Shown here: positions 5,824 to 53,245 of the stretch, one piece after another
How positions within the stretch are numbered: position 1 is the first letter of the stretch
Layout: each line of letters opens with the position of its first letter
NCBI RefSeq assembly: GCF_030718205.1
Contig: NZ_JAUZQF010000002.1
Location: 496,001-560,000 of the forward strand
DNA: 64,000 nucleotides
Source: Nonomuraea turcica
GTDB lineage: Bacteria; Actinomycetota; Actinomycetes; Streptosporangiales; Streptosporangiaceae
Reading direction: 5' to 3'
Position numbers and translations under genes: made by a program
Notes under the pieces: generated by a model
The model's database searches: none
What the model was told of the DNA's origin: nothing
Seen by the model: only the letters and a program-made list of their open reading frames with translations

Positions 5824-8679
<2,856 letters not shown>

Positions 8680-8707
8680 TCAGGGCAAGGCGCCCGGAGT
8701 TCTGCTT

Positions 8708-8736
8708 GTGGCCAGAGGAGTGCCGCCTCTGGCCAC
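8708..8736 (-). terminator. Strong hairpin between beta-helix and dehydrogenase genes
   Basis: An 11-bp perfect stem (GTGGCCAGAGG with CCTCTGGCCAC) and a 7-nt loop lie 36 bp beyond the stop of the leftward gene ending at 8772 and 59 bp before the next start. It probably terminates or attenuates transcription between the two. Confidence 0.45.
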
Positions 8737-8771
8737 GGTGGGAGACGAGGCCCGTCGTCAGGCGGACGGTG

Positions 8772-11153
8772 TCAGGCGCGGGTCCATTTCTGGTTGGTGC
8801 CGCCGTGGCAGGTCCAGATCTGCATCTTGGTGCCGTTGGCGGTGCCGGCGCCGGACACGTCCAGGCACTTGTTCGCCCCGACGGCGGTGATGCTGCCGTC
8901 GGCGTTGAGGCGCCACTTCTGGTTGTTCTGACCGTTGCAGTCCCAGATGATCACGCTGGTGCCATCCGCCGTCCCGGCCCCATTCACGTCCAGGCACTTG
9001 GTGCCGTAGACCCGCAGCTCACCGGTGCTGGTGGAGGTCCACTGCTGGTTGGCCTGCCCGTTGCAGTCCCAGATCTGCGCCTGCGCGCCGTTCGTCTGCG
9101 AGGCGCCGGTGACGTCCAGGCACCGGCCCGACCCGACACCCTTGAACGCACCCGTGCTCCCCGAGGGCTGGCCCTGGGGTCCGGCGGACGCGATCACGGC
9201 CTGGGCGCCGGCCGGCCAGGCGCCGTTGGTGACGGTGACGTTGTTGTTCACCACGTTGCCGCGGTCGCCGTTGGTCACGTTGGTGCTGCCGTTGGTCGAC
9301 CAGTTGCCGGTGACGGTGAAATTGCCCATGTTCTCGCCGTAGTAGTAGTTGGCGGTGGCCCAGGTGCCGGTGTTCGAGAGCACGTTGTTCCTGACGGTGT
9401 AGTACTTGGAGCCCTCGTCGAAGTAGATGCCGAACCAGCCGTTGGTGCGCAGGCAGTGGTTGTCGCTGATCACCGCGCCCGGGTTCCACGACAGCGTGTA
9501 GATGCAGCCGCCGTCGGTCATCTGCTGCATGACGTCGCGCACGTAGTTGCCGATGAGCCGGTTGCCGGAGGCGGTGGTGGCCGTGGTGTAACGCGGCTGG
9601 AAGTCGTACAGGCCGCGGTCGGCGTAGTGGGTGCTGCCGCCCGGCTCGTTGGCGCCCCAGCCGTACCCGATCGACATGCCGGTGTACGGCATGTTGTAGA
9701 CCTCGTTGTGGGACACGTCGGTGTTGGTGACGTAAGTGGTCAGGACCGAGACGACGCCCCGGTGGTCCAGGCCGAGGTCGTGGATGCGGTTGTTGCTGAC
9801 GGTGATGTTCCGGTTGACCATCCGCTGGTCACTCGGGTGGTGCGCGTCGGCGCGCACGCCGCCGACCACGATGCCGCCGGCCGAGCTGCGGGCGATCTCC
9901 GACCGGGTGACCACGATGTCGGCGGCGCCCAGGCCGACGCCGCTGGCATGCGCGTTGGCGTCATTGCCGATGCCGATGGCCGTCTGTCCCAGATTGACGA
10001 ACTGGGAGTCGGTGAAGGTGATGGTGCTGGCGGCGGAGACCTGGACGGCGGCGGGCATCTGCTGCCAGTTCGGCCGGGTCGCTTCGAACTGCCGGCAGCC
10101 CTGGTGGCAGGAGGTGAAGGCGGGCCAGCTCCAGTTGCCGGCGATGTAGGCGCCGGTCTGCTGGTCCACGTAGCCCTGGTTGCCGCTGGGGCCGAGCCAG
10201 CTCGTGCCGGTGAAGGTGATCCCGCTGAACGTGATGTGGTGCGCGGGCGCGTCGTAGGTGCCCCCGACCTGCACCAGCGACTGCTGCACCGGCAGCTCCA
10301 CGCTGACGTTGCCCATGTTCTGCCCGGCGAGCGGGATGTAGGACAGGGCGCCGGTCCCGGGGTCGAGGTACCACTCCCCCGGCGAGTCGAGGAACTCGTA
10401 GGCGTTGACCAGGTAGAGCGGCCCCGCCCGGTGCGGGCTGGTGAAGGTGTCGTACCCGAAGTTGTTGTTGTTCCAGGCGGGCTGCCGCATCGTGATGAGG
10501 TTGCCGCTGATGCTCTGCACCGGCGCGTACCGGTCGGTGAACGAACCGACGCTCTCCATCTCGACCCGGCCCTGGTTGGCGAGGTTGTTCAGATAGCTCA
10601 GCGCGCTGCTGGTGAACCTCATCCCGGTGCTGCTCGCGGTGAAGTCGGACCGGTTGACGGCGGTGCGCGCCCGGGTGGCGAGCGCGCCGTCGACGTACAG
10701 CTGCCGGGTGTCGATCCCGGCGCCGACGTTGGCGCGCCAGATGTTCTTCCCCGAGTCGGCCACGGTCCATCCGGTGACCGCCCTGGCTCCGCTGATGACA
10801 GGATGGGCGCCCGCCGCGGCCTGCCATTTGACGGTGTAGCCGTTGTTCCCGGAGTCGGCGGCGGTCAGCCGGAGCGGCGCGGAGAGCCGGTACACACCGT
10901 CGGCCAGCTCGACGACGATGTCACCGGACATTCCGGCGTTCAGCGAACGCACCGCCGTCTGCGCCGCGGGCAGCGAGCACGGCTGGGTTGAGGTGCAGGC
11001 GGTGCCGGTGCCGGCGGGTGACGCGTACAGGGTCGTGGTGGCCGCGAAGGCCGGGGTGGCCGGGGCGACGAGGGCGAACGCCGCGGCCAGCGCCGCGGCG
11101 ACGATGCCGGTCAGGACCGGTTTCAGCGCCGTGACGGGCGAAGATAACTGCAC
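8772..11153 (-). CDS. Secreted right-handed parallel beta-helix protein with ricin lectin
   Basis: 793 residues from a GTG at 11153, preceded by GAAGGAA 6 bp upstream; a longer frame to 11300 lacks this support. After a signal peptide (cleaved near PAFAATT) comes a long parallel beta-helix region (about 40-660) with repeated NxISxN/NxVxxN-type turns such as NRITVSNNRIHDLG-like strands. The ricin B lectin occupies the last 125 residues. The early segment (SPAGTG ... ARAVTGW ... YVDGALATRAR) resembles large secreted beta-helix glycoside hydrolases such as the GH141 type, but catalytic residues cannot be assigned by eye, so only the fold and secretion are claimed. It is the first gene of the leftward set and has its own promoter candidate at 11366-11394. 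Confidence 0.85.
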   Translation of the reverse strand: MQLSSPVTALKPVLTGIVAAALAAAFALVAPATPAFAATTTLYASPAGTGTACTSTQPCSLPAAQTAVRSLNAGMSGDIVVELADGVYRLSAPLRLTAADSGNNGYTVKWQAAAGAHPVISGARAVTGWTVADSGKNIWRANVGAGIDTRQLYVDGALATRARTAVNRSDFTASSTGMRFTSSALSYLNNLANQGRVEMESVGSFTDRYAPVQSISGNLITMRQPAWNNNNFGYDTFTSPHRAGPLYLVNAYEFLDSPGEWYLDPGTGALSYIPLAGQNMGNVSVELPVQQSLVQVGGTYDAPAHHITFSGITFTGTSWLGPSGNQGYVDQQTGAYIAGNWSWPAFTSCHQGCRQFEATRPNWQQMPAAVQVSAASTITFTDSQFVNLGQTAIGIGNDANAHASGVGLGAADIVVTRSEIARSSAGGIVVGGVRADAHHPSDQRMVNRNITVSNNRIHDLGLDHRGVVSVLTTYVTNTDVSHNEVYNMPYTGMSIGYGWGANEPGGSTHYADRGLYDFQPRYTTATTASGNRLIGNYVRDVMQQMTDGGCIYTLSWNPGAVISDNHCLRTNGWFGIYFDEGSKYYTVRNNVLSNTGTWATANYYYGENMGNFTVTGNWSTNGSTNVTNGDRGNVVNNNVTVTNGAWPAGAQAVIASAGPQGQPSGSTGAFKGVGSGRCLDVTGASQTNGAQAQIWDCNGQANQQWTSTSTGELRVYGTKCLDVNGAGTADGTSVIIWDCNGQNNQKWRLNADGSITAVGANKCLDVSGAGTANGTKMQIWTCHGGTNQKWTRA

Positions 11154-11365
11154 GGTGGTTCCTTCGGGGGGTAGGGGGTGGACGTGCTTCTCCCAAGATG
11201 GCGCGACACACTGGTGAGACCACGAGGGGACGCATGGCAAACGAAGCTGTGGACGTCGACGTGGCCGGTCACGATGCGGAGGGCCGCGAAGCGCCTCCAC
11301 ACTGCGTCCATGTGATCCAGCCGCGGAGGTTCCGGAAGGAGCGCGTCCTTCGGAGCCTCGCTATC

Positions 11366-11394
11366 TAATTACGTTCGGAGTCATGATGCGTCAA
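11366..11394 (-). promoter_or_regulatory. Promoter candidate for the leftward beta-helix gene
   Basis: Read leftwards: TTGACG (11389-11394), a 17-bp spacer and TAATTA (11366-11371). This is a good sigma-70-like pair in a locally AT-rich stretch, about 210 bp upstream of the GTG at 11153. Confidence 0.4.
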
Positions 11395-11513
11395 GACCTT
11401 AAGCCCGCTTATTCGACCGGTTGTGCGCCGAAGGTCCAGCCAATGGTTGTGTGCTTTACTCCTTCACCAGCGGCGATTCCTGCCACGGCGTACGCTCACG
11501 CCCATCATCCTCG

Positions 11514-11528
11514 TATGAACCTTTCAGA
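11514..11528 (+). promoter_or_regulatory. Degenerate copy of the GATGAA-N3-TTCATC operator
   Basis: TATGAACCTTTCAGA matches the repeat at 12440-12454 at 11 of 15 positions. It lies about 93 bp upstream of the GntR gene, so self-regulation by that protein is possible. Confidence 0.25.
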
Positions 11529-11620
11529 TGTGTCGTACTGATTGCACGCACCTGATCGTCCTCGGGGAGGGCGACGTCGATCAGTCATACTCTTACAGGG
11601 AACGGCGAGGAGGAACCACG

Positions 11621-12361
11621 GTGACGGACACCCCGCGTGAGAGCGGATACCGGCCGGGCTACGAGGTGGCCGCCGAGCAAGTACTGGAATTGATCGTCCG
11701 GCTCGGCCTGCGTCCGGGCGACCGCATGCCGACCGAGAACGAGCTGGCCCACCAGCTGGGCACCAGCCGCACGGTGGTACGCGAGGCGGTGAAGATACTC
11801 TCCGCGCTCGGGCGGGTGCGTGCCCAGAAGGGCCGTGGCCTGTATGTGGCCGACGACGAGGGAATGCTCGGCACCGGGCGCTGGGCGTCCTTCTTCCTCC
11901 CCGCCGACCTGGACCACGTCTACATGCTGTTCGAGTTCCGCCGGGCGCAGGAGATGGAGACCAGCAGGCTGGCCGCCCGCCGCGCCATCCCCGCGGAGCT
12001 GAGGGCCATCGAGGAGGCGGCCGGTGTGTGCCGCCACGGATTCGAGACAGGACGCGAGGACCTGTTCAACGAGGGCGACGACACCTTTCACACCGCCATC
12101 GCCACGGCCTCGCACAACATTTTCCTCCAGGTCGCGGTGCGGGAGGCCCGCAGGCTGCAGGCGCAGTCCAGCCTCATCGGGCTGCGCGGCTCGGTGGGCG
12201 GGCACGCCGCCAAGGCCGTCGAGGAGCACGACGCCATCTACCAGGCCATCCGCGCCGGCGACCCGGAAGCGGCCGCCCAGGCCGCCGCCACGCACATCGA
12301 CAACACCCTCGACGACTACCGAAGAGAGATCCAGCAGCGCCTCTTCTCCTCATCCGAATGA
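11621..12361 (+). CDS. FadR/GntR-family transcriptional regulator (FCD domain)
   Basis: 246 residues. The N-terminal winged helix (about 10-78) shows the GntR pattern GDRMPTENELAHQLGTSRT followed by VREAVKIL. The C-terminal all-alpha FCD ligand domain (about 95-235) contains FEFRRAQEMETSRLAA and the metal/ligand-binding histidine region NEGDDTFHTAIATAS, later VEEHDAIYQAI. FCD members usually bind small organic acids, uronates or sugar acids. GTG at 11621 is chosen because GAGGAGG sits 7 bp upstream; the frame extends further but without a ribosome site. It stands between the divergent beta-helix gene and the GH54 gene, so it is the best candidate regulator of this exoenzyme island. Confidence 0.9.
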   Translation: MTDTPRESGYRPGYEVAAEQVLELIVRLGLRPGDRMPTENELAHQLGTSRTVVREAVKILSALGRVRAQKGRGLYVADDEGMLGTGRWASFFLPADLDHVYMLFEFRRAQEMETSRLAARRAIPAELRAIEEAAGVCRHGFETGREDLFNEGDDTFHTAIATASHNIFLQVAVREARRLQAQSSLIGLRGSVGGHAAKAVEEHDAIYQAIRAGDPEAAAQAAATHIDNTLDDYRREIQQRLFSSSE

Positions 12362-12439
12362 TCCGGCTGGCGGTCGGCTAAGTCGAACCGGTTCGATCAT
12401 ATGGGAGCCGATGGGACGTCACCAGGCGAACCGGGGGCG

Positions 12440-41369: not shown

Positions 41370-42386
41370 TTAGCCAATCAGAGACGCTGTGGACAGATGC
41401 CGGAGGGTCGACGTTCGGGCCAGCAGGCGAGTGTGATGGACCACGCCTCCTGACACCGCAGGCGTTTCTCCTTCGACGAGTTGGATGAGGAGTTCCGTGG
41501 CGATTCTCGTCGCTCCGACGGGATCGAGGGACAGCGTGGTGACCGGCGGTGTTGTCGTCTCGTAGGCACTGGACTCGCTCGCACAGGCCACCAGGAGGTC
41601 TTCGGGAATCCGCAGGCCATAGCCAGGGGCGGCCGACAGTACGGCGTGCCCGCATCGGTCGTACGGACCGAAGATGGCGTCGGGAGGATCGTCCCGGGAC
41701 AGGAGGCGGGCGACGGCAGGGGCCGGATTCTTGCGTCTCATGAGTTCGAGAAGGGCGGGCTCTCCCCGCTCGGCACACCACTGACGGTACGTTGTCATGC
41801 AGGCCTGGATGTAGTAGTCGGTGGTGTCGCCGCCGAGTAGGGCGACCCGCTGTGCACCGGCCTGCGACAGGTGGTCCAGCACGCCGCGCACCGCGCCTTC
41901 GACATCGTTGTCCACCCAGATGTCGTTCGGCTCCGCGCTGACCGGCCTCCCGATGTGGACGACGGGCACGCCGCGCATCAGCAGATCGGCACGAACCCGA
42001 TCGCCCTTCGGGCTGTCGATCAGCAGCATGCCGTCGACGGGCAGAACGGCCCACCGCTCCAGGCCGAGAGCGGTGGGTTGCACGACGAGCCCATAGCCGT
42101 GTTCGTGTGCGACCACGGTGGCGGACTGGATGGCCTGGGAGAAGTAGGGGATTTCCGCGAAGCCCCATGAGGCGGGGTGGTCGGTGGTGACGGCCAGGCC
42201 CAGCGTTCTCGTGTGCGTCTTATCAGGAAGGTAGCCGAGCTCTCGTGCCACGCGCCACACGTTGTCACGCGTGCTCTGGGACATGCGGCCGGCCGAGTTG
42301 AGCGCGTTGGAGACGGTCGCGATCGACACTCCGGCCACTCGCGCCACATCCGCCATGGTCACGTCAGGTGAGGGCTTTCGGGGCAC
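41370..42386 (-). CDS. LacI-family transcriptional regulator
   Basis: 338 residues from GTG 42386; an ATG at 42356 is the shortest reasonable alternative. The DNA-binding helix is canonical: MADVARVAGVSIATVSNALN. A hinge follows, then a two-lobe ligand domain (about 60-330) with VDGMLLIDSP, WVDNDVEGAVRGVLDHL and DDPPDAIFGPYDRC. The gene lies 49 bp after an MBL-fold hydrolase gene in the same direction. Its target is not obvious from position; the LacI-like palindromes found before the exoenzyme genes are far away and may be read by this or another regulator. Confidence 0.88.
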   Translation of the reverse strand: MPRKPSPDVTMADVARVAGVSIATVSNALNSAGRMSQSTRDNVWRVARELGYLPDKTHTRTLGLAVTTDHPASWGFAEIPYFSQAIQSATVVAHEHGYGLVVQPTALGLERWAVLPVDGMLLIDSPKGDRVRADLLMRGVPVVHIGRPVSAEPNDIWVDNDVEGAVRGVLDHLSQAGAQRVALLGGDTTDYYIQACMTTYRQWCAERGEPALLELMRRKNPAPAVARLLSRDDPPDAIFGPYDRCGHAVLSAAPGYGLRIPEDLLVACASESSAYETTTPPVTTLSLDPVGATRIATELLIQLVEGETPAVSGGVVHHTRLLARTSTLRHLSTASLIG

Positions 42387-42435
42387 CTTTACAATCGTAC
42401 GCTCGTGGCGTTTCGCGGAGGTTACCCGCCGGCTG

Positions 42436-43062
42436 TCACTCGGCTGTCTCCACCGGGACGAATGACCCACCGTGACCAGGGATGATCAGGCTCGGACGCA
42501 GGGCGAGCACGCGCTCGCGCGATCGTCTCAACGCGTGGGCGTCCTCGGCCAGCGGGTCGTCGGCCGGCCCGTCGGCACTCCACCACAAATGTGTGGCGAC
42601 GACCAGCCCGCCATCGGTCTCCGCCACCGTGGAGATGTCCTGCGCCGTGTGCCCCGGGGTTCGCAACAGCCGGACCGAGGGCGACAACTCGAAACCATCG
42701 GCCTCACGCTCCACCCACTCGTCCCCAGCGTAGATCGCCCAGTGGTCGTGGAAGCGGGCCTCGGGGAACAGGGCGGCGTTCAACGTGTGATCCGGGTGGT
42801 GGTGAGAGAACACCACGTCGGTGACCTGCTCGGGTTGCAGGCCCAACTCGGCGAGAGGGTCCAGGATGAGCCGGCGGTGGGCGACCATGCCCGGATCGAC
42901 CACTGCGATCAGGTCGCCTTCCCGGATCAACGTCACGGTGCTGGCGACCCGCTCGTCGGCGTATCCGTCCGTGAGGACGTGAACGAATGCTGGCATGCCA
43001 GGCAGCATACGGAAATCGTTGCCAGCGAGGAAGATGGCGACCGATTCGGTCGCCATGGCCAT
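42436..43062 (-). CDS. Metallo-beta-lactamase-fold hydrolase (MBLAC1-like)
   Basis: 208 residues (or 186 if ATG 42996 is used; neither start has a clear ribosome site). The metal motif SHHHPDH lies at residues 86-92, followed by TPGHTAQD, THLWW (third ligand region) and IIPGHGG, a complete binuclear site. The strand pattern VVDPGMVAHRRLIL resembles the MBLAC1 subgroup. Substrate unknown. It shares a divergent intergenic palindrome (43092-43111) with the amino-acid binding protein gene and may be co-transcribed with the LacI regulator. Confidence 0.85.
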   Translation of the reverse strand: MAMATESVAIFLAGNDFRMLPGMPAFVHVLTDGYADERVASTVTLIREGDLIAVVDPGMVAHRRLILDPLAELGLQPEQVTDVVFSHHHPDHTLNAALFPEARFHDHWAIYAGDEWVEREADGFELSPSVRLLRTPGHTAQDISTVAETDGGLVVATHLWWSADGPADDPLAEDAHALRRSRERVLALRPSLIIPGHGGSFVPVETAE

Positions 43063-43091
43063 GCAACGAGATTGTTACCGTACGGGGTTGT

Positions 43092-43111
43092 GGTTAATTC
43101 GTTAATCAACC
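43092..43111. promoter_or_regulatory. 20-bp dyad between MBL-fold and binding-protein genes
   Basis: GGTTAATTCGTTAATCAACC has the symmetric core GGTTnATT-N4-AATnAACC and is markedly AT-rich. It lies 30 bp and 43 bp from the two divergent starts and is a good operator candidate for both. Confidence 0.45.
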
Positions 43112-43154
43112 TCAATGGCCCTCACCCGCAAGCTCGTCTGGGTGGAGGTACGGA

Positions 43155-43991
43155 ATGCACGGTCGCATACTCGCGACGGCCGCCGCGCTGTCATTGGCCG
43201 CATGCGGAACGGCGGCGAAAACGGAGGCCGCTCCAGCCGGCGGCAAGGCGATGGTAGCGCCTCCTGCGGTGATCAAGGACGGGGAGATCGTCTACTGTTC
43301 CGACATCTCCGCCCCGCCGCTGGAGTTCTACGACAAGGCCAAGAAGCCCATCGGTGCCGACGTGGAGATCGGCGAGGCGCTCGCGGCCAGGCTCGGTGTG
43401 GCGGCGGTATGGCGAAACACCAAGTTCGCCTCCATCGTCCCTACCTTGGTGGCCAAGCAGTGCGATGCGATTCTGTCCCAGCTCTACATCAAGCCAGAGC
43501 GGGAAAGGGTTGTCGACTTCGTCCCCTACATGTACTCCGGTCAGTCGATCCTCGTGGCCAAGGACAATCCCCGGCGCGTCACCGGGCTGGACGAGAGCCT
43601 GTGCGGGCTGACCGCGTCGACGCTCATTTCCACCACGGCCGCCACGCGTCTCGAGGATCAGTCCAAGAAGTGCGAGGCGGCCGGCAAACCCGCCATCAAG
43701 CTGACCCGGTTCGATCAGGACATCGCCGCACTGCAGGAGCTGGCGCTCGGCCGGTCGCAGGCATACGCGACCACGAGCGAGACCGCCGCCTACTACATGG
43801 GCCAGAAGCCCGGCCTCTTCGCCTTCGCGGGAGAGTCGTTCGACAAGATCAAGGCCGGCATCGCCGTACGCAAGGGCAACTCCGCGCTGCAGAGCGCGCT
43901 GGCCAAGGCGCTGCAAGAGATCCGGGCGGACGGGACGTACGACAAGGTCCTGGCCAAGTGGAACCTCCAGGTGGACAGGCTGGAGCCTTGA
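43155..43991 (+). CDS. Amino-acid ABC transporter substrate-binding lipoprotein (SBP family 3)
   Basis: 278 residues. Lipobox LSLAAC (Cys17). The mature protein is a family 3 binding protein: IVYCSDISAPPLEFYD opening, ADVEIGEALAARLGV, then DAILSQLYIKPERERVVDFVPY, and a C-terminal GIAVRKGNSALQ and DGTYDKVLAKW. Family 3 proteins bind polar amino acids, small peptides or opines. GTGGAGG lies 7 bp upstream of the ATG. First gene of a three-gene unit with a permease and a gamma-glutamyltransferase, so a gamma-glutamyl compound is a plausible ligand. Confidence 0.92.
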   Translation: MHGRILATAAALSLAACGTAAKTEAAPAGGKAMVAPPAVIKDGEIVYCSDISAPPLEFYDKAKKPIGADVEIGEALAARLGVAAVWRNTKFASIVPTLVAKQCDAILSQLYIKPERERVVDFVPYMYSGQSILVAKDNPRRVTGLDESLCGLTASTLISTTAATRLEDQSKKCEAAGKPAIKLTRFDQDIAALQELALGRSQAYATTSETAAYYMGQKPGLFAFAGESFDKIKAGIAVRKGNSALQSALAKALQEIRADGTYDKVLAKWNLQVDRLEP

Positions 43992-44767
43992 CTTTCGACC
44001 CGGCGTTCTTCTGGGACGCGCTCCTTCGCCCGTCGGGGCCGTTTCTCGCGGGGCTCTGGCGCACGGTCTACATCTCTGTCCTCGCCCAGCTCCTGGCAGT
44101 GATCATCGGGCTCGGCGTGGCGCTGATGCGCCGATCCAAGCGCCGCTGGGTCACCGCGGTGGCCGGGTTCTACATCTGGATCCTGCGCGGCACCCCACTG
44201 CTGGTGCAACTGGTTCTCGTCTACAACGGCCTGGCCGCGGCCGAGCTCTATTCCTTCTCCGACGTGACCCTGCTCGGCGTGACCGTCACCGGCGTGTTCC
44301 AGGCCGCCCTGGTCACGCTGGCGATCAACGAGAGCGCCTACATGGCGGAGATCATCCGGGCGGGGATCGACTCAGTCGGGAAGGGGCAGTCGGAGGCGGC
44401 GCTCGCCATCGGCATGACACCGCGCTCCGCGATGAGATGGATCATCCTGCCGCAGGCGCTGCGCTTCATCGTCCCGCCGCTCGGCAACAACTTCAACGCC
44501 ATGATGAAGACCACCTCGATCTTGAGTGTGATCGGTGTGGACGAGCTGTTCCTCAACACCCAGGCGATCAGTTCCACGACCTTCCGCACGTTCGAAGTGT
44601 TCATCGTCGCGGCTCTGTACTACCTGATGCTCACTACCTTGTGGTCGTTCGTCCAGGCTTGGATCGAGGGCCGGCTGAATGCATCGGCGGGGATATCGCG
44701 ACCTCCGACGATAGGGCAGCGGCTCTTCGGCGGCGGGCGTGCCGTGGTCCGGGCAGAGGCGCCATGA
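43988..44767 (+). CDS. Amino-acid ABC transporter permease (HisM/GlnP family)
   Basis: 259 residues from TTG 43988, which overlaps the binding-protein stop (TTGA); no other start fits the N-terminus. Five to six hydrophobic segments; family motifs ILRGTPLLVQLVLVYNG, NESAYMAEIIRAGIDSVGKGQ (EAA loop: EAALAIGMTPRSAMRWIILPQA) and PPLGNNFNAMMKTTS. It would form a homodimer with a GlnQ-type ATPase, but no such gene follows. The next gene is a gamma-glutamyltransferase starting 4 bp before this stop. Confidence 0.9.
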   Translation: MTFDPAFFWDALLRPSGPFLAGLWRTVYISVLAQLLAVIIGLGVALMRRSKRRWVTAVAGFYIWILRGTPLLVQLVLVYNGLAAAELYSFSDVTLLGVTVTGVFQAALVTLAINESAYMAEIIRAGIDSVGKGQSEAALAIGMTPRSAMRWIILPQALRFIVPPLGNNFNAMMKTTSILSVIGVDELFLNTQAISSTTFRTFEVFIVAALYYLMLTTLWSFVQAWIEGRLNASAGISRPPTIGQRLFGGGRAVVRAEAP

Positions 44768-46293
44768 CCTATCACTGCGCCATCGCCAGCCCGCACGTTC
44801 TCGCCACCGCCGCGGCAAAGAAGGCGATCGCACGCGGCGGCAACGCCGTAGACGCCGCGCTCGCGGCCGCCGTGACGCTCACCGTCGTCTATCCGCACAA
44901 CACCGGACTCGGCGGCGATCTGATCGCTCTGATCAGATCCCCGGACGGCAGGATCTCCTGCGTCAACGCCAGCGGCCCCGCCCCGGCCGGCATCGACGTG
45001 GCGGCGCTGAGATCGCGTTCCGGCGGCCAGATGCCCGTGTCCGGGCCTGACACGATCACCGTCCCCGGCGCGGTCGCCGGCTATGCCGCGCTGCACGCCT
45101 CCGGTGCCGCGCTGACGTGGCCCGACCACTTCGCCGCCGCCATAAGCCATGCGGAAGGCACTCCTGTCGTTCCGGGCCTGGCAGTGGCCATAGCCGAGGC
45201 CAGAGATCTGATCGCCGCCGACCCGGGGATGCGGACCGTCTTCGGGTCACTTCGCGTCGGCGAAACCCTGCGCCAGGAGGCGTTGGCCACGACGCTCGCG
45301 GAGATCGCGGCTCAGGGCCCCGAGGTGTTGTACGGCGGGCGGCTGGGCGAGCGACTGGTCGCCGGCCTGCAGGCGTTGGCGGTCCCCATCGCCTTGGACG
45401 ACCTGACCGCCTACGAGGTCGAGCAGTCCGATCCGCTCCACCGCACCTTCCGGGGTTTCGACGTTTACACCAGCCCGCCCAACACACAGGGCTTCCTGCT
45501 GTTGCAGGCGCTGGGCGCACTGGAGAGAACGGACCCGCAGGGGGAAGACGCCGGACAACTGGCCGCGATCTTCCACAGAGGCATCGCCGACCGGACCCGC
45601 CATCTGGCCGATCCCCGGTTCGCGCAGATCGACGTGGACGCCCTGCTGCTGGGCCCCTCCCCCCAAGCGCCCGGGCCGGCCATCACCGGCAGGGCGAGTG
45701 GCGACACGGTCGCGGTCGTGACCGCGGACAGCGAAGGGTACGCGGTCTCGCTGATTCAGAGCCTCTTCCACAGCTTCGGCGCAGGGCTGCTCGAACCCTC
45801 GACCGGCATGGTGATGCACAACCGCGGAGCGTTCTTCTCCCTCGACGCCGCCTCGCCCAACGTCATCGCGGCAGGCAAGCGTCCGGCACACACGCTGATG
45901 CCGGTCATGGTCACCCAGGAAGAACGGCTGGCCTGGTCGATGGGCACGATGGGAGGCAAGGCCCAACCGCAGATCCTCACCCAAGTGCTGCTACGGCTGC
46001 TCGACGGGGAACAACCCGCCGACGCGGTGGCCGCGCCCCGCTGGGTCGTCGGCGGTATGGAAGCGGGCCAGCCGGAGGACACGATCAGCCTGGAGATGGA
46101 TCTCTCCCCGCGGACCATCGCAGCTCTGACCGCGTCCGGCGCCCCGATCATCCCGCTGCCGCCGGCGTCCGAATGGGTCGGCCACGCACAAGTCGTCGGG
46201 GGTGCCACCTCAGCAGGGAGCGATCCTCGCTGCGATGGCGCCTCCGCCATGGTTTCGCTGATACCGGAAGATCCCCAGGCCGACATGTCCTGA
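44764..46293 (+). CDS. ggt: Gamma-glutamyltransferase-family Ntn hydrolase
   Basis: 509 residues, ATG overlapping the permease stop (ATGA). GGT fold features: AAAKKAIARGGNAVDAALAAAV, HNTGLGGDLIALI, PGAVAGYAALH, the proposed autocatalytic Thr at GDTVAVVTAD (Thr315), and SFGAGLLEPSTGMVMHNRG, then the GMGG-like MGTMGGKAQPQ. No export signal is visible, so it is probably cytoplasmic, unlike classic periplasmic GGT. The family transfers or hydrolyses gamma-glutamyl groups or acylates related amides. Coupling to an importer suggests that it processes the imported ligand. Confidence 0.9.
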   Translation: MTYHCAIASPHVLATAAAKKAIARGGNAVDAALAAAVTLTVVYPHNTGLGGDLIALIRSPDGRISCVNASGPAPAGIDVAALRSRSGGQMPVSGPDTITVPGAVAGYAALHASGAALTWPDHFAAAISHAEGTPVVPGLAVAIAEARDLIAADPGMRTVFGSLRVGETLRQEALATTLAEIAAQGPEVLYGGRLGERLVAGLQALAVPIALDDLTAYEVEQSDPLHRTFRGFDVYTSPPNTQGFLLLQALGALERTDPQGEDAGQLAAIFHRGIADRTRHLADPRFAQIDVDALLLGPSPQAPGPAITGRASGDTVAVVTADSEGYAVSLIQSLFHSFGAGLLEPSTGMVMHNRGAFFSLDAASPNVIAAGKRPAHTLMPVMVTQEERLAWSMGTMGGKAQPQILTQVLLRLLDGEQPADAVAAPRWVVGGMEAGQPEDTISLEMDLSPRTIAALTASGAPIIPLPPASEWVGHAQVVGGATSAGSDPRCDGASAMVSLIPEDPQADMS

Positions 46294-46332
46294 GGTGACG
46301 CGGGACAGGGTCAGTGAGTGCCCCGAGGAGCG

Positions 46333-47565
46333 CTACCGTGATAGCGCATGATCGATGCGTTCGAGCGCCTCAGTCAGCACCTTCCGGGGGCAGCCGACGT
46401 TCAGTCGGACGCACCCCTCTCCTCCGGGGCCGTAGACCCGGCCGTCGTAGAGATTGACGGCCGCACGGTCGACGAGGAACTGGTGCAGCCCGCCCACACG
46501 AGCGTCAAGCTCACGAGCCTCGAGCCAGACCAGGAACGATGCGTCCGGCGGCATCGGCGTGATCTCGGGCAGCCGCTCTTGGACGAACTCGTGCACGAAG
46601 GCCACGTTGCCCTTGAGATATTCGGTCAGCCGGTCGAGCCACGGACCACCCGTAGTGTAGGCAGTCTCCAAGGCCAGACGACCGAAGTAGTGCGCGTTGA
46701 TCATGAACGATGCCCGCATGGCGTTAAGCAGTTCCGAGCGCAGGTATGGATCGGCAACCGAGAGTGTGGCCGTTGGCAGGCCGGCAAGGTTGAAGGTCTT
46801 GGTGGGGGCAGTGCAGATGAATGCTCGGCGGGCGGCGTCGCTGCTGATCGAGGCATAGACCACGTGGGGCCGGCCGTTCAGCCGGATGTCGCAGTGGATC
46901 TCGTCAGAAATCACCAGAAGGTCGTAGCGCGCACAGATGTCGTTCACGGCGAGCAGCTCGTCGGCCGTCCAGCTCCGGCCCGAGGGATTGTGGGGGTTGC
47001 AGAGCAGTAGCACCTTCGCGCCGGATGCGGCCAGCTCGGCCAGATTGTCGAGGTCGAACTCGTAGCGGTTGTCGATGAGCCGGAGCCGATTCACGAGCAG
47101 CCGCCGGTGATTACCGGTAATGGCCTCGAAGTTCGGCGAGTAGACCGGTGACTGGACGATCACCCCATCTCCAGGGGCGGTGAAGGTGCGCAAGATTGCT
47201 GCGACCGAGGACATGATCGCAGGGGCCGGGAGGAGCGTTTCCACCGGTGGTGTCCAGCCGTGCCTGACGGTGAACCAGTTCTGCACGATCTGGAAGTGTT
47301 CCGGGTCTCGCAGGGTGTAGCCGTAGATACCGTGGTCCGCAGCGGCGCGCAGGCGGTCGATGACGGTCGTCGGCGCCCGGAAGTCCATGTCGGCCGTCCA
47401 TAGCGACAGCAGATCCTCGCCCCGGACACGCGGTGAAAATTCGTCCCATTGGTTGGCCCATTTGGCTGACCCGAAAGTGGCGCGGTCGTACACCGTGTCA
47501 AAGTCGGGGTCGGCGCCGTACTCTGCGGTGGCGGTAGGACTGGCCTTTGGCGGTCTGGTGGTCAT
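46333..47565 (-). CDS. MalY/PatB-type PLP-dependent aminotransferase or C-S lyase
   Basis: 410 residues. Fold type I features: LWTADMDFRAPTTV near the N-terminus (the W-x-AD-MDF pattern of MalY/PatB), GYTLRDPEHF, QSPVYSPNF, LLLCNPHNPSGR, ISDEIHCD and the PLP lysine in TAPTKTFNLAGL. MalY/PatB proteins cleave cystathionine-like C-S bonds or transaminate. The gene follows the binding protein of the Liv importer at 95 bp and may process an imported amino acid. GGAGAAG precedes the ATG. Convergent with the gamma-glutamyltransferase gene. Confidence 0.9.
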   Translation of the reverse strand: MTTRPPKASPTATAEYGADPDFDTVYDRATFGSAKWANQWDEFSPRVRGEDLLSLWTADMDFRAPTTVIDRLRAAADHGIYGYTLRDPEHFQIVQNWFTVRHGWTPPVETLLPAPAIMSSVAAILRTFTAPGDGVIVQSPVYSPNFEAITGNHRRLLVNRLRLIDNRYEFDLDNLAELAASGAKVLLLCNPHNPSGRSWTADELLAVNDICARYDLLVISDEIHCDIRLNGRPHVVYASISSDAARRAFICTAPTKTFNLAGLPTATLSVADPYLRSELLNAMRASFMINAHYFGRLALETAYTTGGPWLDRLTEYLKGNVAFVHEFVQERLPEITPMPPDASFLVWLEARELDARVGGLHQFLVDRAAVNLYDGRVYGPGGEGCVRLNVGCPRKVLTEALERIDHALSR

Positions 47566-47660: not shown

Positions 47661-48995
47661 TCAGCCGTTCTGGCCGATGCCGGCTTTGATGAGTTCCGGG
47701 ACGATCTTCTTGCTCTCGTCGAACGAGATCAGCACGATGGCGTCCGGGTCTTGGGCCTTCACCTTCTCCACCTCGGCCGTGTAGTTGGCTGCGTTCGCGT
47801 CGTAAAGGGCATAGGAGACGACTTTGCCGCCGGATTCCTCGTAGAAGGAGCGGACGTTCTTCGCCAATGCCTCTCCGTAGGCGTCCTGCCGGGCGAGGAT
47901 TGCGATGTTGCGGTGACCGTCCTCGCTGATGGTCTGGGCCATCACCTGCCCCTGCAGGACGTCGGAGGGGGCCGTGCGGAAGTACATGCCATGGTCGGGG
48001 TAGGTGTCGAATGCGGTCGAGGTGTTTCCGGCCGATATCTGGACGACGCCGGCCCCGGAGATCTTGTCGATGACCGACAACGACACCGACGAGGAAGCGG
48101 CGCCGATGATGACGTCGGCACCACCGCGGAGCAGTTTGTCGGTCTCGGATGGCGCAATGTTCGGCGACCCGTCACCGGAGTCGCCCTTCAACTGCTTCAC
48201 ATCCTTGCCCAGCACACCCCCGGCCTTGTTGATTTCGTCAATGGCCAGGTCCACGCCGGCGAACTGCGGGGCGCCGAGGAAGGAGCTGTCCCCTGTGGCA
48301 GGGAGCAGGGTGCCGAACGTAAGGGTGCCGTCCCCCTTGGGGATTGGGCCGCTGACCTTCTGGTCGGCTCGGATGTTGGCTTGGTCCGGAGTGGTGCCGT
48401 TGACGTAGCCGACATTCTTGTAGTTGTTGTCCTGCCCGAATTGGTAGATGCCGACGGTCGCCGCGGACGGGCTTCCTGTCGAGTTCATCTCGATCGGGCC
48501 AGAGGCGCCGTCGTAGTCGATGTCCGTTCCGTCGGCGAGTAGGTCGGCGCACTGCTTGAAGCTGGTGCACTTTGTCCCATCCCTGGTAATGCCGATCTCC
48601 TTCTCGGCGATCGCCTTGCCGGAGTCGTTTTTGGCGGCGATCGCAGCCAGGGCTGAGAGGATCGTGGCGTCGTAGGCCTCCGGAGCGTAGGTGAAGTCCT
48701 TCACCTTGCTGTTGATCTTGAGGATCCGCTGCCGGAATTCGTCGCCGATCTTGCCGCCGGGCAGGGTGGCGCGCACACCGTTGAGAGTGCCCGGCTCGAA
48801 ATCACCGGAGTAGTCGGCGGTGTTGCCGTCTACGAAGTAGAGCTGGGTGCCCGCCTTGGCCGGCGGCTGGGTGCCCGCCGTGGCCGGCGGCTCGCTGCCG
48901 GCTGCGGTGGGGCTGCTGTTAGAACCGCAAGCGGCGGTTGCCAGCGCGGCGAAGGCCAAAACGGCGATACAGGTGATGCGTCTGGGGAGCGGCAT
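47661..48995 (-). CDS. livK: Branched-chain amino-acid-type binding lipoprotein, circularly permuted
   Basis: 444 residues from ATG 48995 (TTGGAGG 4 bp upstream). Lipobox LATAAC (Cys23) and a low-complexity linker come first. Residues 52 to about 205 then match the C-terminal half of actinomycete LivK proteins (LYFVDGN, FTYAPEAYDATILSALAAIA, CTSFKQCADLL, IEMNSTGSPS, NYKNVGYVNG). After a linker, residues about 225-444 match the N-terminal half (LTFGTLLPATGD, FAGVDLAIDEINKAGGVLG, AASSSVSLSVIDKI, ILARQDAYGEALA) and stop at IPELIKAGIGQNG, precisely where the first segment would normally follow. All segments are intact, so the fold should close. Belongs to the Liv operon. Confidence 0.88.
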   Translation of the reverse strand: MPLPRRITCIAVLAFAALATAACGSNSSPTAAGSEPPATAGTQPPAKAGTQLYFVDGNTADYSGDFEPGTLNGVRATLPGGKIGDEFRQRILKINSKVKDFTYAPEAYDATILSALAAIAAKNDSGKAIAEKEIGITRDGTKCTSFKQCADLLADGTDIDYDGASGPIEMNSTGSPSAATVGIYQFGQDNNYKNVGYVNGTTPDQANIRADQKVSGPIPKGDGTLTFGTLLPATGDSSFLGAPQFAGVDLAIDEINKAGGVLGKDVKQLKGDSGDGSPNIAPSETDKLLRGGADVIIGAASSSVSLSVIDKISGAGVVQISAGNTSTAFDTYPDHGMYFRTAPSDVLQGQVMAQTISEDGHRNIAILARQDAYGEALAKNVRSFYEESGGKVVSYALYDANAANYTAEVEKVKAQDPDAIVLISFDESKKIVPELIKAGIGQNG

Positions 48996-49116: not shown

Positions 49117-49920
49117 CTAGTTCCGCCGGCCGGCAGGTGTGCTGTCTGCCTGGGCGGCATTGGACAAGGTGCCGAGATACAGCTCGATCACCCTGGGGTC
49201 ACGGGCCAGCGCCTGGCCGGACCCGGTGTAGGCCTTGCGTCCTTGGTCGAGGACGTACCCGCGGTCGCAGATCTGCAGGCAGCGGCGTGCGTTCTGCTCG
49301 ACCATGACGACCGATACACCGGTGCGGTTGATGGCTCGGGTCTGGACGAACACCTCGTCCTGCAGCGCCGGGGACAGGCCCGCTGAGGGTTCGTCGAGCA
49401 ACAACACGGAGGGTTCCATCATCAGAGCCCGGCCCATGGCCACCATCTGCCGCTCACCGCCTGACAATTGCCCGGCCCGCTGCTTGCGGCGCCGGCCCAG
49501 CGCAGGGAACAGGTCGGTCACGAACGCAAATCGGGGGGCGAACTTCTTGGGGGACTGATAGCACCCCATCCGCAGGTTTTCCTCGATGGTGAGCGAGGGG
49601 AAAATGTTGTTGGTTTGCGGTACGAAGCCGACCCCTTGGGATACCAGTGCGTCGGCGCGCTGGTTCGTGATCTCTTCGCCCCGCAGGCGAACCGTCCCGG
49701 CGGTGATCTTGACCAGCCCGAAGAGTGCTTTGAGCAGTGTCGACTTGCCGGCGCCGTTGGGTCCGATGATGCCGACCAACTCGCCCGGTTGGCAGTACAG
49801 ATCGGCGCCATTCAAGATGTTGACTCCGGGGAGATACCCGGCGATCAGATTGTCGGCGCGAAGGGCTGCACCCTCGGCCGCCTGCAGATGCTCCGATGGG
49901 CCGTGATGGGCAGAAGTCAT
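49117..49920 (-). CDS. livF: Branched-chain amino-acid ABC transporter ATPase LivF
   Basis: 267 residues. Walker A GPNGAGKSTLLK, Q-loop FVPQTNNIFP, signature LSGGERQ, Walker B VLLLDEPSAGLSP and the switch VVMVEQNAR; LivF proteins typically have VEQN here. ATG overlaps the LivG stop by 4 bp. The C-terminal LARDPRVIELYLG is also typical of LivF. It energises the LivH/LivM channel together with LivG. Confidence 0.93.
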   Translation of the reverse strand: MTSAHHGPSEHLQAAEGAALRADNLIAGYLPGVNILNGADLYCQPGELVGIIGPNGAGKSTLLKALFGLVKITAGTVRLRGEEITNQRADALVSQGVGFVPQTNNIFPSLTIEENLRMGCYQSPKKFAPRFAFVTDLFPALGRRRKQRAGQLSGGERQMVAMGRALMMEPSVLLLDEPSAGLSPALQDEVFVQTRAINRTGVSVVMVEQNARRCLQICDRGYVLDQGRKAYTGSGQALARDPRVIELYLGTLSNAAQADSTPAGRRN

Positions 49921-50948
49921 CTCGGGACCTCCCGGTCGACCAGCTGCTCGGCGTGGTCGTGCGCGTGCTCGACCTGGATGACGTGTTCGAGCTCGCTGAT
50001 GTCGGTGTCGTGGCGAGCTCCGAGGTAGGCATCGATGACCCGTTCGTCCGACATGATGGACGTGGGGGGTCCCTCGGCGATCACCTTGCCCTGGGACATG
50101 ACGACCACCCAGTCGGAGATCTCTCGCACCATGTCCATGTCGTGTTCGACGAACAGGACGCTCATTCCCTGATCCCGAAGCGACTTCACATGCCCGAGCA
50201 GGGACTGCTTCAGCGCTGGGTTGACGCCGGCCATGGGTTCGTCGAGCATGACCAGCTTCGGTTCGACCATGAGCGCTCGCGCCATCTCGAGCAGCTTTCT
50301 CTGGCCGCCTGACAGGGACCCGGCGAAATCTTCCTCCGTGGCGTCGAGTTTGAACCGCTTGAGCAGGTCTCGGGCCCGGTCGGTGATGTCTCGTTCCTGC
50401 GCCCGCCACAGGGCGGGGAGCGCGGCGGCCCATAAGCGTTCGCCACGCTGACCTGTGGCGCCCATCCGCATGTTCTCCACTACTGTCAGTTTCGAGAGCA
50501 CTCTGGTCAGTTGGAAGGTCCGGACCATGCCGAGGCGTGCCACTTTGTAGGCTGCCTTGCCTTTGAGCGGTGTCCCGTCGAAGGACCAGGAACCGGCATC
50601 GGGTTGATCGAAGCCGGTGAGCAAGTTGAAGAACGTGGTCTTGCCTGCACCGTTGGGTCCGATCAAGGCGGTGATGACCCCACGTTGGATTTCGAGATGT
50701 TCCACGTCGACCGCGGTGAGGCCGCCGAAGGCGCGGCGGATTCCGTTCACGACTACAACGGGGTCGGGTTTGGCAGCGCCGGGCTCATGCGGCACCGACT
50801 GCAAAGCAGTCCGGCACTCGCGCATCGACTTGTTCTCCCCGGCACCGGGGTCGGGAACCCTTGGCTGCGACGTATCACCGGCAGCCGGGACGTCCTTGGG
50901 TGCGATGCCCGAGGAGAGGTGGTCAGTGGGGACGTTGTCAGTGGGCAT
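49917..50948 (-). CDS. livG: Branched-chain amino-acid ABC transporter ATPase LivG
   Basis: 343 residues from ATG 50948, overlapping the LivM stop by 11 bp. An unusual polar N-terminal extension of about 60 residues precedes the ATPase domain: Walker A GPNGAGKTTFFN, LivG-specific VRTFQLTRVLSKLTVVENM, signature LSGGQRK, Walker B LVMLDEPMAGVNP and VLFVEHDMDMV. An extra His/Glu-rich tail (LEHVIQVEHAHDHAEQ) follows the usual end. Partner of LivF. Confidence 0.92.
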   Translation of the reverse strand: MPTDNVPTDHLSSGIAPKDVPAAGDTSQPRVPDPGAGENKSMRECRTALQSVPHEPGAAKPDPVVVVNGIRRAFGGLTAVDVEHLEIQRGVITALIGPNGAGKTTFFNLLTGFDQPDAGSWSFDGTPLKGKAAYKVARLGMVRTFQLTRVLSKLTVVENMRMGATGQRGERLWAAALPALWRAQERDITDRARDLLKRFKLDATEEDFAGSLSGGQRKLLEMARALMVEPKLVMLDEPMAGVNPALKQSLLGHVKSLRDQGMSVLFVEHDMDMVREISDWVVVMSQGKVIAEGPPTSIMSDERVIDAYLGARHDTDISELEHVIQVEHAHDHAEQLVDREVPR

Positions 50949-51918
50949 CGAGCGCGATCTCCCTTCGATCACCGAAGATGCCTTGCGGCCGGAAAATCAT
51001 CAGCAGCATCAGCACCAATCCGACCAACATCAGCCGGAAGATTGATGCTTGGTCGGCGTTCATGAACTGCGCCACGACCGGGTAGCCCGCCAACTGCGTC
51101 AAGACCGATCCGAGGAACGACAGGATCGCCCAGAACATCACCGCGCCGACGATCGGACCAAGGATCCGAGCGGCGCCACCCAGGATGAGCATGGTCAAGG
51201 CGATGAAGGTGAAGTCCAGGTTGAACGTGTCGGCCTGGACCGAAGCGGCCCCGAACGCGCCCACGAAACCTCCGGCGCATCCGACCACTCCACCGAGGAT
51301 GAGTGCCTGGATCTTGTAGCTGTAGACGTTCTTGCCCAGAGACCGCATCGCATCCTCGTCTTCACGGATGCCCCGAAGAACCCTTCCCCACGGTGATCGC
51401 ATCAGGGCCCAGGTGAACAGACTGATCATGATGACCAGGCCCCAGCCGACAATGACTGTCCACAGCTCCTCCCGGCTGTAGGTCAGGAAGAAGCCGTCGT
51501 AGTCCGGCAGCGGGTTGAGGCTTCGGAACCCGGCGGTGAAGCCGGTCACACCGTCCTTGCCGTGAAAGTACGTCCGGAACGACGTCCCGAACACAAGTCG
51601 AAGGATCTCTGCCGCCGCGATGGTGACGATCGCCAGGTAATCCGCCCGAAGACGCAGGGTGGGGATACCCAAGATCAGCGCCAACGCCACGGTGAAGGCG
51701 ATCGCGAGCAGGATGGCGAGGACGGTGGGAATCCCGCTTGTGGCGATCGCCGCGCCCATGATGTAACCGCCTACCGACAAGAAAGCGGCCTGACCGAAGT
51801 TGAGCAGCCCGGCGTAGCCGAACTGAATGTTCAAACCGATCGCAGCCAAGCAGAACGATACGGCCACATAGCCGAAGCCGTCGTGCAGTGCCCCCGTGAC
51901 GGCGCCGATGATGTCCAT
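50938..51918 (-). CDS. livM: Branched-chain amino-acid ABC transporter permease LivM
   Basis: 326 residues with about nine hydrophobic segments. LivM motifs: LNIQFGYAGLLNFGQAAFLSVGGY, PTLRLRADYLAIVTIAAAEI, the EAA-type loop GRVLRGIREDEDAMRSLGKN and the C-terminal MIFRPQGIFG. It starts 4 bp after the LivH stop, and its own stop lies inside the start of LivG. Confidence 0.93.
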   Translation of the reverse strand: MDIIGAVTGALHDGFGYVAVSFCLAAIGLNIQFGYAGLLNFGQAAFLSVGGYIMGAAIATSGIPTVLAILLAIAFTVALALILGIPTLRLRADYLAIVTIAAAEILRLVFGTSFRTYFHGKDGVTGFTAGFRSLNPLPDYDGFFLTYSREELWTVIVGWGLVIMISLFTWALMRSPWGRVLRGIREDEDAMRSLGKNVYSYKIQALILGGVVGCAGGFVGAFGAASVQADTFNLDFTFIALTMLILGGAARILGPIVGAVMFWAILSFLGSVLTQLAGYPVVAQFMNADQASIFRLMLVGLVLMLLMIFRPQGIFGDRREIALDAH

Positions 51919-51922
51919 GTCC

Positions 51923-53245
51923 TCACCCGATCCTCTCGGCGCGGCCGAGCAAGCCTTGTGGTCGGACGAGCAGGACCAGCGCCAGCAGAACCATCGCGCC
52001 TGCGAACTTGAGTTCCGATGGGATGACCAAGGTTGAGGTCTCGACGAACAGCCCGATGATGATCGAGCCGATCAGCGCGCCCCACACTGATCCCAGACCT
52101 CCGACGCAGGTAGCGGCGAAGATCAACAGCAGTACCTGCGCTCCCAGTTGGTAGGACACCGATTGGGAGAATCCCAAGAACGCCCCGCTCAGTCCCGCCA
52201 GCGCGGTGCCCACGATCCACACCGTGGTTATGACACGATCGACGCTGATCCCCGTCGCAGAGGCCAGGGCCCGATTGTCCGACACCGCGCGCGTGGCGCG
52301 ACCGAGCCGGGTGTACTGCAAAGCAAGAGTGACCGCGACGAGCGCAAGCCCACTGATGGAGATGATGACGACGTCTCGCATGGTGTAGGTGAACAAGCCG
52401 AAGGCGTCTCGGCCGGCGGGCGTGACGTATTCGCGGTAGGTCAAGGCGCGGCCGCCTGTGAAGTACTGGTAGAAGTTCCGGAGAAAGAACTGCAGACCGA
52501 TCGAGACGATCATCATGGCGATAAGTCCCGTTCCGCGGCGTCTGAGTGGACCCCACAAACCCTTTTCGTTCAGGTAGCCGAACAGCGCCGACAGCGCTAC
52601 CGCCACCGCCACCGCCACGACGATGGGCAGCCCTATGACCCGGTTGCCGAGATAGGTGGCGAATGCCCCGAAGGTCACCAGCTCGCCGTGGGAGAAGTTC
52701 GACAGTCCCGTCGTGCCGAACACCATGGACAGGCCAAGAGCCCCCAATGACAGCACCAGGCCGAACAGCAGACCGTTGTAGAGCAGTTGAGGGACCTGGT
52801 CCCACACCGTCGACACTCGACGCGTATCGGGACCGAGGGGGAAGTTGACGGTGATCGTGCTCAAGGTGCCCGTTGGCCGCAAGGTGTTCGACGCTCCGTC
52901 GCGGACCTGCACACCATCGGGAAGCGTCTTGGTGTCCAAGATGACGGCCAGGGTGCCCGAGTCGCCGCCGGGCACAGTGATCGCGAACCGGCCTTGGTCG
53001 TTGCTGACGCCCGTGTAGGTCTTACCCGTACTGGACTGGACATTGATCTTCACCCCAGCGACCGGTGCGTTGTTGTCGGCAGAGTTGCGCAACGTTCCCT
53101 GCACGGTCCGATCATCAGCCGCGTACGTCGGACCGCCCACTGCCACGACGCCGAGCAGGGCGATCGAGAGCATGACCGCTCCCAGCAGTAGTGACAGGCG
53201 AGCAGGATGGCTGCGTACGCGCCAACGTGCACGGGGTGGTCTCAT
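51923..53245 (-). CDS. livH: LivH permease with N-terminal extracytoplasmic Ig-like domain
   Basis: 440 residues, about 130 longer than a plain LivH. A signal peptide (to about residue 44, PTYAADD) is followed by a carboxypeptidase-regulatory-like beta-sandwich (about 47-135: VQGTLRNSADNNAPVAGVKI, SNDQGRFAITVPGG), then the permease (about 148-440) with GLSMVFGTTGLSNFSHGELVTFG, AVSDNRALASATGISVDRV and VRPQGLLG. The extra domain would sit on the outer face and could position the binding protein. GGAG is 6 bp upstream of the ATG. First gene of the leftward liv operon. Confidence 0.9.
   Translation of the reverse strand: MRPPRARWRVRSHPARLSLLLGAVMLSIALLGVVAVGGPTYAADDRTVQGTLRNSADNNAPVAGVKINVQSSTGKTYTGVSNDQGRFAITVPGGDSGTLAVILDTKTLPDGVQVRDGASNTLRPTGTLSTITVNFPLGPDTRRVSTVWDQVPQLLYNGLLFGLVLSLGALGLSMVFGTTGLSNFSHGELVTFGAFATYLGNRVIGLPIVVAVAVAVALSALFGYLNEKGLWGPLRRRGTGLIAMMIVSIGLQFFLRNFYQYFTGGRALTYREYVTPAGRDAFGLFTYTMRDVVIISISGLALVAVTLALQYTRLGRATRAVSDNRALASATGISVDRVITTVWIVGTALAGLSGAFLGFSQSVSYQLGAQVLLLIFAATCVGGLGSVWGALIGSIIIGLFVETSTLVIPSELKFAGAMVLLALVLLVRPQGLLGRAERIG

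Follow-up and report, generated by a model that had tools for sequence, protein, structure and literature searches.

The stretch of DNA analyzed here (the window, 64,000 nucleotides of the Nonomuraea turcica genome) carries five genes on one strand in the order livH-livM-livG-livF-livK, the last of which (47661–48995, minus strand) is translated into a LivK-type lipoprotein of 444 amino acids. As an earlier note on this DNA had stated, the gene lies beside a complete liv operon, being encoded with LivH, LivM, LivG, and LivF as is characteristic of LivK-type proteins. A longer open frame around it (499 amino acids) starts at 49160; with the ATG at 48995 as the start, the signal peptide is N-terminal. 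Behind the signal peptide and lipobox, the protein presents the C-terminal half of LivK (opening with LYFVDGN), which some 23 linker residues connect to the N-terminal half (opening with LTFGTLLP), each half being single and in frame (Table 1).

Table 1. Features of the permuted livK gene and of the adjoining genes
Feature	Position	Strand	Basis or remark
Class I/II aminotransferase-fold enzyme (PF00155)	46333..47565	(-)	Pfam; adjoins livK
N-terminal half of LivK, second, residues 224-444	47664..48326	(-)	Pfam PF13458 at 225-424; PDB matches
Linker from old C terminus to old N terminus, residues 201-223	48327..48395	(-)	Sequence comparison
C-terminal half of LivK, first, residues 51-200	48396..48845	(-)	Identity to normal-order C halves; model
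Unstructured tether with TAGTQ repeat, residues 24-50	48846..48926	(-)	pLDDT <50 over residues 1-47
Signal peptide and lipobox, residues 1-23, predicted lipidated Cys23	48927..48995	(-)	Translation
livF (ATPase)	49117..49920	(-)	Start read by eye
livG (ATPase)	49917..50972	(-)	Exact start uncertain
livM (permease)	50938..51918	(-)	
livH (permease, PF02653) with N-terminal extension	51923..53245	(-)	Pfam

Swapped Halves and Gene Neighborhood

The translation, Pfam, and the comparison with normal-order loci agree with the earlier note that the conserved blocks are swapped, each present once and in frame, and that the lipoprotein signal is retained. The profile PF13458 (343 positions) matches the permuted LivK by positions 2–198 only, at residues 225–424, and the normal-order relative L055 matches positions 1–314 in one run. 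Compared with normal-order loci of the Nocardioidaceae and Nonomuraea type, the N half is about 49–68% identical and the C half about 46–65%, in the opposite order. Both halves show the homology of LivK-type (HAAT) proteins, and what the protein lacks is their normal N-to-C order along PF13458; both halves occur once, reversed, and with the old termini joined, as in a natural circular permutant. A normal-order paralogue is encoded on contig C28 of the same genome (N half 55%, C half 51% identical). The linker ends in GDG, which is the native N-terminal tail and is also found in normal-order proteins. A lipobox-like motif precedes VDGN in 143 of 145 and in 71 of 71 permuted proteins, and the length of the tether differs between relatives. 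The TAGTQPPAKAGTQ repeat, which had been proposed to mark the join, was discarded in that role, as it sits in the tether after the lipobox, away from the join, and among near-identical copies is found in the window and the same-species locus L120 and is absent from L011, L040, and L042–L044.

The same order was found in a second assembly of the species (G068, two contigs; identity rounding to 100% over residues 1–444), in 18 of the 119 loci compared, and in all 121 database proteins listed (the best 120 of 6915 matches and the query). In a set of 80 loci, the 15 with swapped halves belong to named Nonomuraea, Streptomyces, Marmoricola, and Nocardioides records, a recurrence in related genomes that the earlier note had suggested looking for. 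That an assembly chimera or a frame artefact of the Nonomuraea turcica genome explains the order has a next to negligible chance, since the identical order recurs in further assemblies of several genera and in database proteins. The order seen in the same-species assembly, the database proteins, and the Nocardioidaceae genomes described below shows that it is not an assembly error, and no ordinary-order homologue colinear over the whole length was found in these comparisons.

Several features of the neighborhood were also recorded. The N-terminal extension of LivH, about 140 residues long, starts like a signal sequence and contains a CarboxypepD_reg-like stretch (E 2.9e-5, below the Pfam cut-off); as a partner of the permuted LivK it was rejected because similar extensions, judged by eye, also occur in normal-order loci. 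The aminotransferase-fold enzyme adjoins livK in near-identical Streptomyces and Nonomuraea copies as well (96–100% identity). It belongs to a gene set at 41370–47565 that further encodes a LacI-type regulator, a metallo-beta-lactamase-fold protein, a gamma-glutamyltranspeptidase, and a polar amino acid binding protein with its permease, and that is also present beside the operon in L040 and L173, both near-identical copies. A link between the operon and these adjoining gamma-glutamyl and amino acid genes was likewise not retained, as at E 1e-20 they are neighbors only in near-identical copies, with the exception of weak HisJ/HisM matches in L158 and L207.

Predicted Fold and Position of the Cut

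The order of the 26 secondary-structure elements in the AlphaFold model of the permuted LivK (pLDDT 83.1, pTM 0.82) is an exact rotation of that in the model of the normal-order L055 (pLDDT 88.7, pTM 0.86), 10 + 16 in the former and 16 + 10 in the latter. The permuted LivK is predicted to keep the ordinary two-lobed fold with its elements rotated. Together with the reversed halves and the joined old termini, the rotated elements bear out the earlier reading of a true circular permutation. Residues 51–200 are modelled as strands 4–5 of lobe II followed by the helices and last strands of lobe I, where the lobe names and their assignment are those we presume from the Type I fold. The permuted protein stops at the turn GIG-QNG, where normal LivK continues into LYFVDGN; normal-order relatives read through this site, e.g., GVGPQDVQLYFVDGN, which places the cut inside a single turn. 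In the models of the permuted LivK and L055, this turn lies between helix 428–437 and strand 50–55, i.e., the new termini would be in lobe II, between strand 3 with its helix and strand 4, and the lipid tether would consequently sit on lobe II, not lobe I.

In a sequential structure search, the alignments fell mainly on residues 222–444, as is expected of a circular permutant, and in such a search the absence of matches to residues 51–200 is uninformative. For the 60 of 88 solved chains listed, the best stretch of each chain covers only profile positions 204–438, so that none of these 60 showed the permuted order. The match of the engineered sensor 8z0g to the permuted LivK begins within the linker.

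The protein resembles LivK/LivJ (PF13458, Peripla_BP_6; PDB 4gnr, 4n0q, and 2lbp) in its family when taken half by half, in its LivHMGF partners, and in its modelled fold, and differs from them in the swapped halves and the predicted attachment of the tether. Among the papers listed in searches of the CC-licensed PMC literature, none was recognized as describing a permuted LivK, and the only natural permutant of the Type I fold recognized there was TpMglB-2 (Tp0684) of Treponema pallidum, a two-lobed Type I lipoprotein classified as “Type Ic / Cluster Bc” (PMC4990184). TpMglB-2 binds glucose with a conformational change, has homologues in other treponemes and in Gram-positives, and has a strand order that sets the cut in the N lobe, where strand 3 would otherwise lead into strand 4, with a fourth inter-lobe crossing; the rearranged portion shares 13% identity with its counterpart in EcMglB, and the authors consider that tethering may have favored the permutation (PMC4990184). 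Both proteins are naturally permuted Type I two-lobed binding lipoproteins. However, the permuted LivK is predicted to be cut at the pseudo-symmetric place of the C lobe, where its strand 3 would otherwise lead into its strand 4, and in contrast to a member of the MglB sugar family it is of LivK descent, its halves being about 46–68% identical to normal-order relatives. With its cut in the other lobe and its best relatives of the LivK type, it falls outside Type Ic.

Occurrence of the Permuted Order and Probable Transfer of the Operon

Whole-genome searches found the swapped order in 6 of 54 genomes of the genus (own included), in 7 of 297 genomes of the order, and in at least 25 of 341 Nocardioidaceae genomes, including one copy that a contig end truncates; the last figure is a lower bound, as the best five candidates per genome were scored, and 65 further Nocardioidaceae genomes match by the N half alone. 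Among 297 Streptomycetaceae genomes, the single permuted one is the centre genome of the sample itself. In a sample of the class, 8 of 394 genomes are permuted (own included), and six of these eight belong to two further families (f26 and f36), whose proteins are 46–49% identical to that of the window and are cut at the same turn. The earlier description of the arrangement as rare does not hold if it is taken to mean a lone oddity, since the order is conserved in the Nocardioidaceae and in further families.

The Nocardioidaceae type together with the Nonomuraea and Streptomyces copies is hereafter called lineage A, and the two further families together with environmental proteins constitute a second permuted lineage (BC, with B for the f26 type and C for the f36 type). 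All four f26 genomes carry the permuted order, and the matches listed for an f26 protein comprise 73 permuted and 47 normal-order proteins among 120, itself included. Of the 85 f36 genomes searched with a permuted query, at least nine have full-length permuted matches, a lower bound because at most the best 19 candidates were scored; G1341 is cut by its contig, G1338 is distant (45%), and G1342 matches by the N half only (91%). The remaining f36 genomes match by the N half alone (53) or have no match at E 1e-50 (20). In lineage A, 140 of 145 proteins stop 1–5 residues past a GIG-like triplet, as do 70 of 71 in BC, the remaining rows being unparsed.

The Nocardioidaceae operon differs from that of the window in that livHMGF and livK face each other instead of sharing one strand. 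Of the Nocardioidaceae loci compared, 23 of 24 with a permuted livK and 45 of 47 with a normal-order one have this facing arrangement (a few genomes are counted twice, and the other three loci have no full-match operon gene on their piece), which means that the permuted livK holds the slot that ordinary livK holds in sister genomes. In lineage BC, livK faces livFGMH in nine of ten loci, the tenth having no operon gene. The dN/dS of the mature part ranges from 0.11 to 0.32 (21 pairs of seven genes), a result that fits purifying selection. The permuted LivK is real and conserved, and it is likely functional.

A block comprising LysR, livHMGFK, and the aminotransferase gene is found in three Streptomyces loci with genes that are, part by part, 87–99% identical, which fits horizontal transfer. 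The trees of LivK, LivHM, and LivGF all place the window together with Marmoricola-type Nocardioidaceae, and the Nonomuraea and Streptomyces copies probably derive from Nocardioidaceae through horizontal transfer of the operon. Among 72,556 plasmid records, four match the 7-kb query at all and none over 80% of it.

Origin of the Permutation

Phylogenetic analyses addressed whether the permuted proteins descend from one event. Thinning reduced the lineage A LivK set from 33 to 22 permuted locus proteins and from 133 to 50 normal rows, with 17 distant rows left out of its tree, and from the joint LivK tree and the trees of each half 15 of 84 rows were left out (the long or odd L269_1056, L198, L286, and L287, and otherwise near-copies). 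Lineage A forms one clade of 30/30 rows in both operon trees (SH-aLRT 100 for LivH+M and 98 for LivG+F), and as one LivK clade it is not rejected (p-AU 0.14 for the joint data, 0.40 for the N half, and 0.25 for the C half). A single clade for all permuted LivK was rejected (34 permuted versus 35 normal rows, dlnL 90, p-AU 0.0016), as it was by each LivK half alone (p-AU 0.022 for N and 0.021 for C), by LivH+M (p-AU 0.008), and by LivG+F (p-AU 0.0044). In the LivK tree without L198, lineage A joins normal-order Nocardioidaceae with 100/100 support, A itself receives 97/67, and BC 100/98. In the trees of single halves, A needs two changes in each and BC is weakly supported (48 and 85), and the LivGF tree splits BC. 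The normal-order L198 (G415, about 7712–8840), of odd composition and on a long branch, falls inside the permuted A clade of the LivK tree (98/80), and the LivHM and LivGF trees place it with normal-order rows; it is possibly a reversion from permuted to normal order.

The linkers were compared by column shuffles after thinning to 51 A, 13 B, and only 3 C sequences. Without the GDG end, those of B and C are alike (2 of 500 shuffles as high) and those of A resemble neither (214 of 500 against B and 469 of 500 against C). With the GDG end counted, the values become 4 of 500 for A against B and 60 of 500 for A against C, and the likeness of A and B is then attributed to the native N-terminal tail, because normal-order proteins share it. 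The length from a shared anchor to the N half is usually 38 residues in A (97 of 145 rows, with 21 misread and parsed as 171–174 residues) and in C (26 of 26). Since one clade is rejected for LivK, the permeases, and the ATPases and the linkers differ between lineages, the permutation likely arose at least twice. The N half stands first in the solved relatives aligned and in normal-order loci, from which we infer that two gains are the simplest reading. We consider it well supported, and very probable, that the window encodes a permuted LivK-type lipoprotein, the predicted binding protein of livHMGF, from one of two likely independent lineages cut at the same turn.

A single permutation that spread by transfer, with gene conversion by resident normal LivK making lineage A Nocardioidaceae-like, would account for the cut turn and facing operon slot common to A and BC, for the usual anchor-to-N-half length common to A and C, and for the likeness of A and B linkers when the GDG end is counted. 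However, one clade is rejected for the whole LivK, for each half, and for both operon trees, and apart from the native GDG end the linkers of A and BC show no likeness, which leaves this explanation improbable. Even less credible is the proposal that the permuted LivK left transport and became a receptor or decoy lipoprotein. The normal-order operon found elsewhere in the same genome (C28) would allow for such a change, but in ten permuted Nocardioidaceae genomes the permuted gene is the sole match at E 1e-30, and the permuted livK holds the operon slot.

For the favored reading of two separate permutations into an operon binding protein, a route can be suggested in which an in-frame head-to-tail duplication of livK would come first; the N half of the first copy, as far as the signal, and the C half of the second copy would then be lost. 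This corresponds to the tandem duplication and outer-half loss proposed in the earlier note, which remains plausible: tandem livK arrays, the L269 pair, and P0167 are consistent with it, and none of them is the ancestor. Tandem livK genes are common, in arrays of two or three. At L269 (1293–3908), a distant permuted livK (halves 38–40% identical) is followed on the same strand by a normal-order livK, beside livFGMH. P0167, from an environmental contig, is an in-frame head-to-tail double LivK of 759 amino acids with nearly equal copies, the second incomplete. The tandem arrays and P0167 could represent a possible parent arrangement, but each copy in them has the normal order. In locus L175 (G007, about 7408–12380), three normal-order livK genes lie in a row beside livFGMH, and arrays of two to three genes recur in the genus.

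In the working model, the signal would be followed by the lipid-bearing Cys23, a tether of roughly 27 unstructured residues would lead to lobe II, and an amino-acid-like solute would be bound between the lobes and handed to LivHM. Both this transport role and any benefit of the permutation are putative. Selection may repeatedly have opened Type I binding lipoproteins at one structural joint of a lobe, where strand 3 passes into strand 4, because the tether then moves to another lobe and alters the contact with the permease, LivH and LivM having changed as well; this idea, which counts lobe II twice in LivK and lobe I in TpMglB-2, is speculative and on balance doubtful. Faster change of the permeases than of the ATPases on the A stem (ratio 3.1) was considered and was not decisive, other branches having ratios of 3.8–3.9 and one of 10.5. 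The median ratios of permease to ATPase pair distances are 1.87 and 1.92 within groups and 2.38 between them.

To our knowledge, few natural circular permutations have close normal-order relatives. Here, permuted and normal LivK occupy the same slot of sister genomes with both halves alignable, two lineages seemingly underwent the identical change, and in one genome a permuted and a normal livK are direct neighbors. What is added to the precedent of TpMglB-2 is the LivK descent and a likely parallel origin. The system opens direct tests of the origin of a permutation, of the turns that tolerate it, and of the position of the tether in an ABC importer, and a double origin would make it possible to study why proteins are rearranged in this manner.
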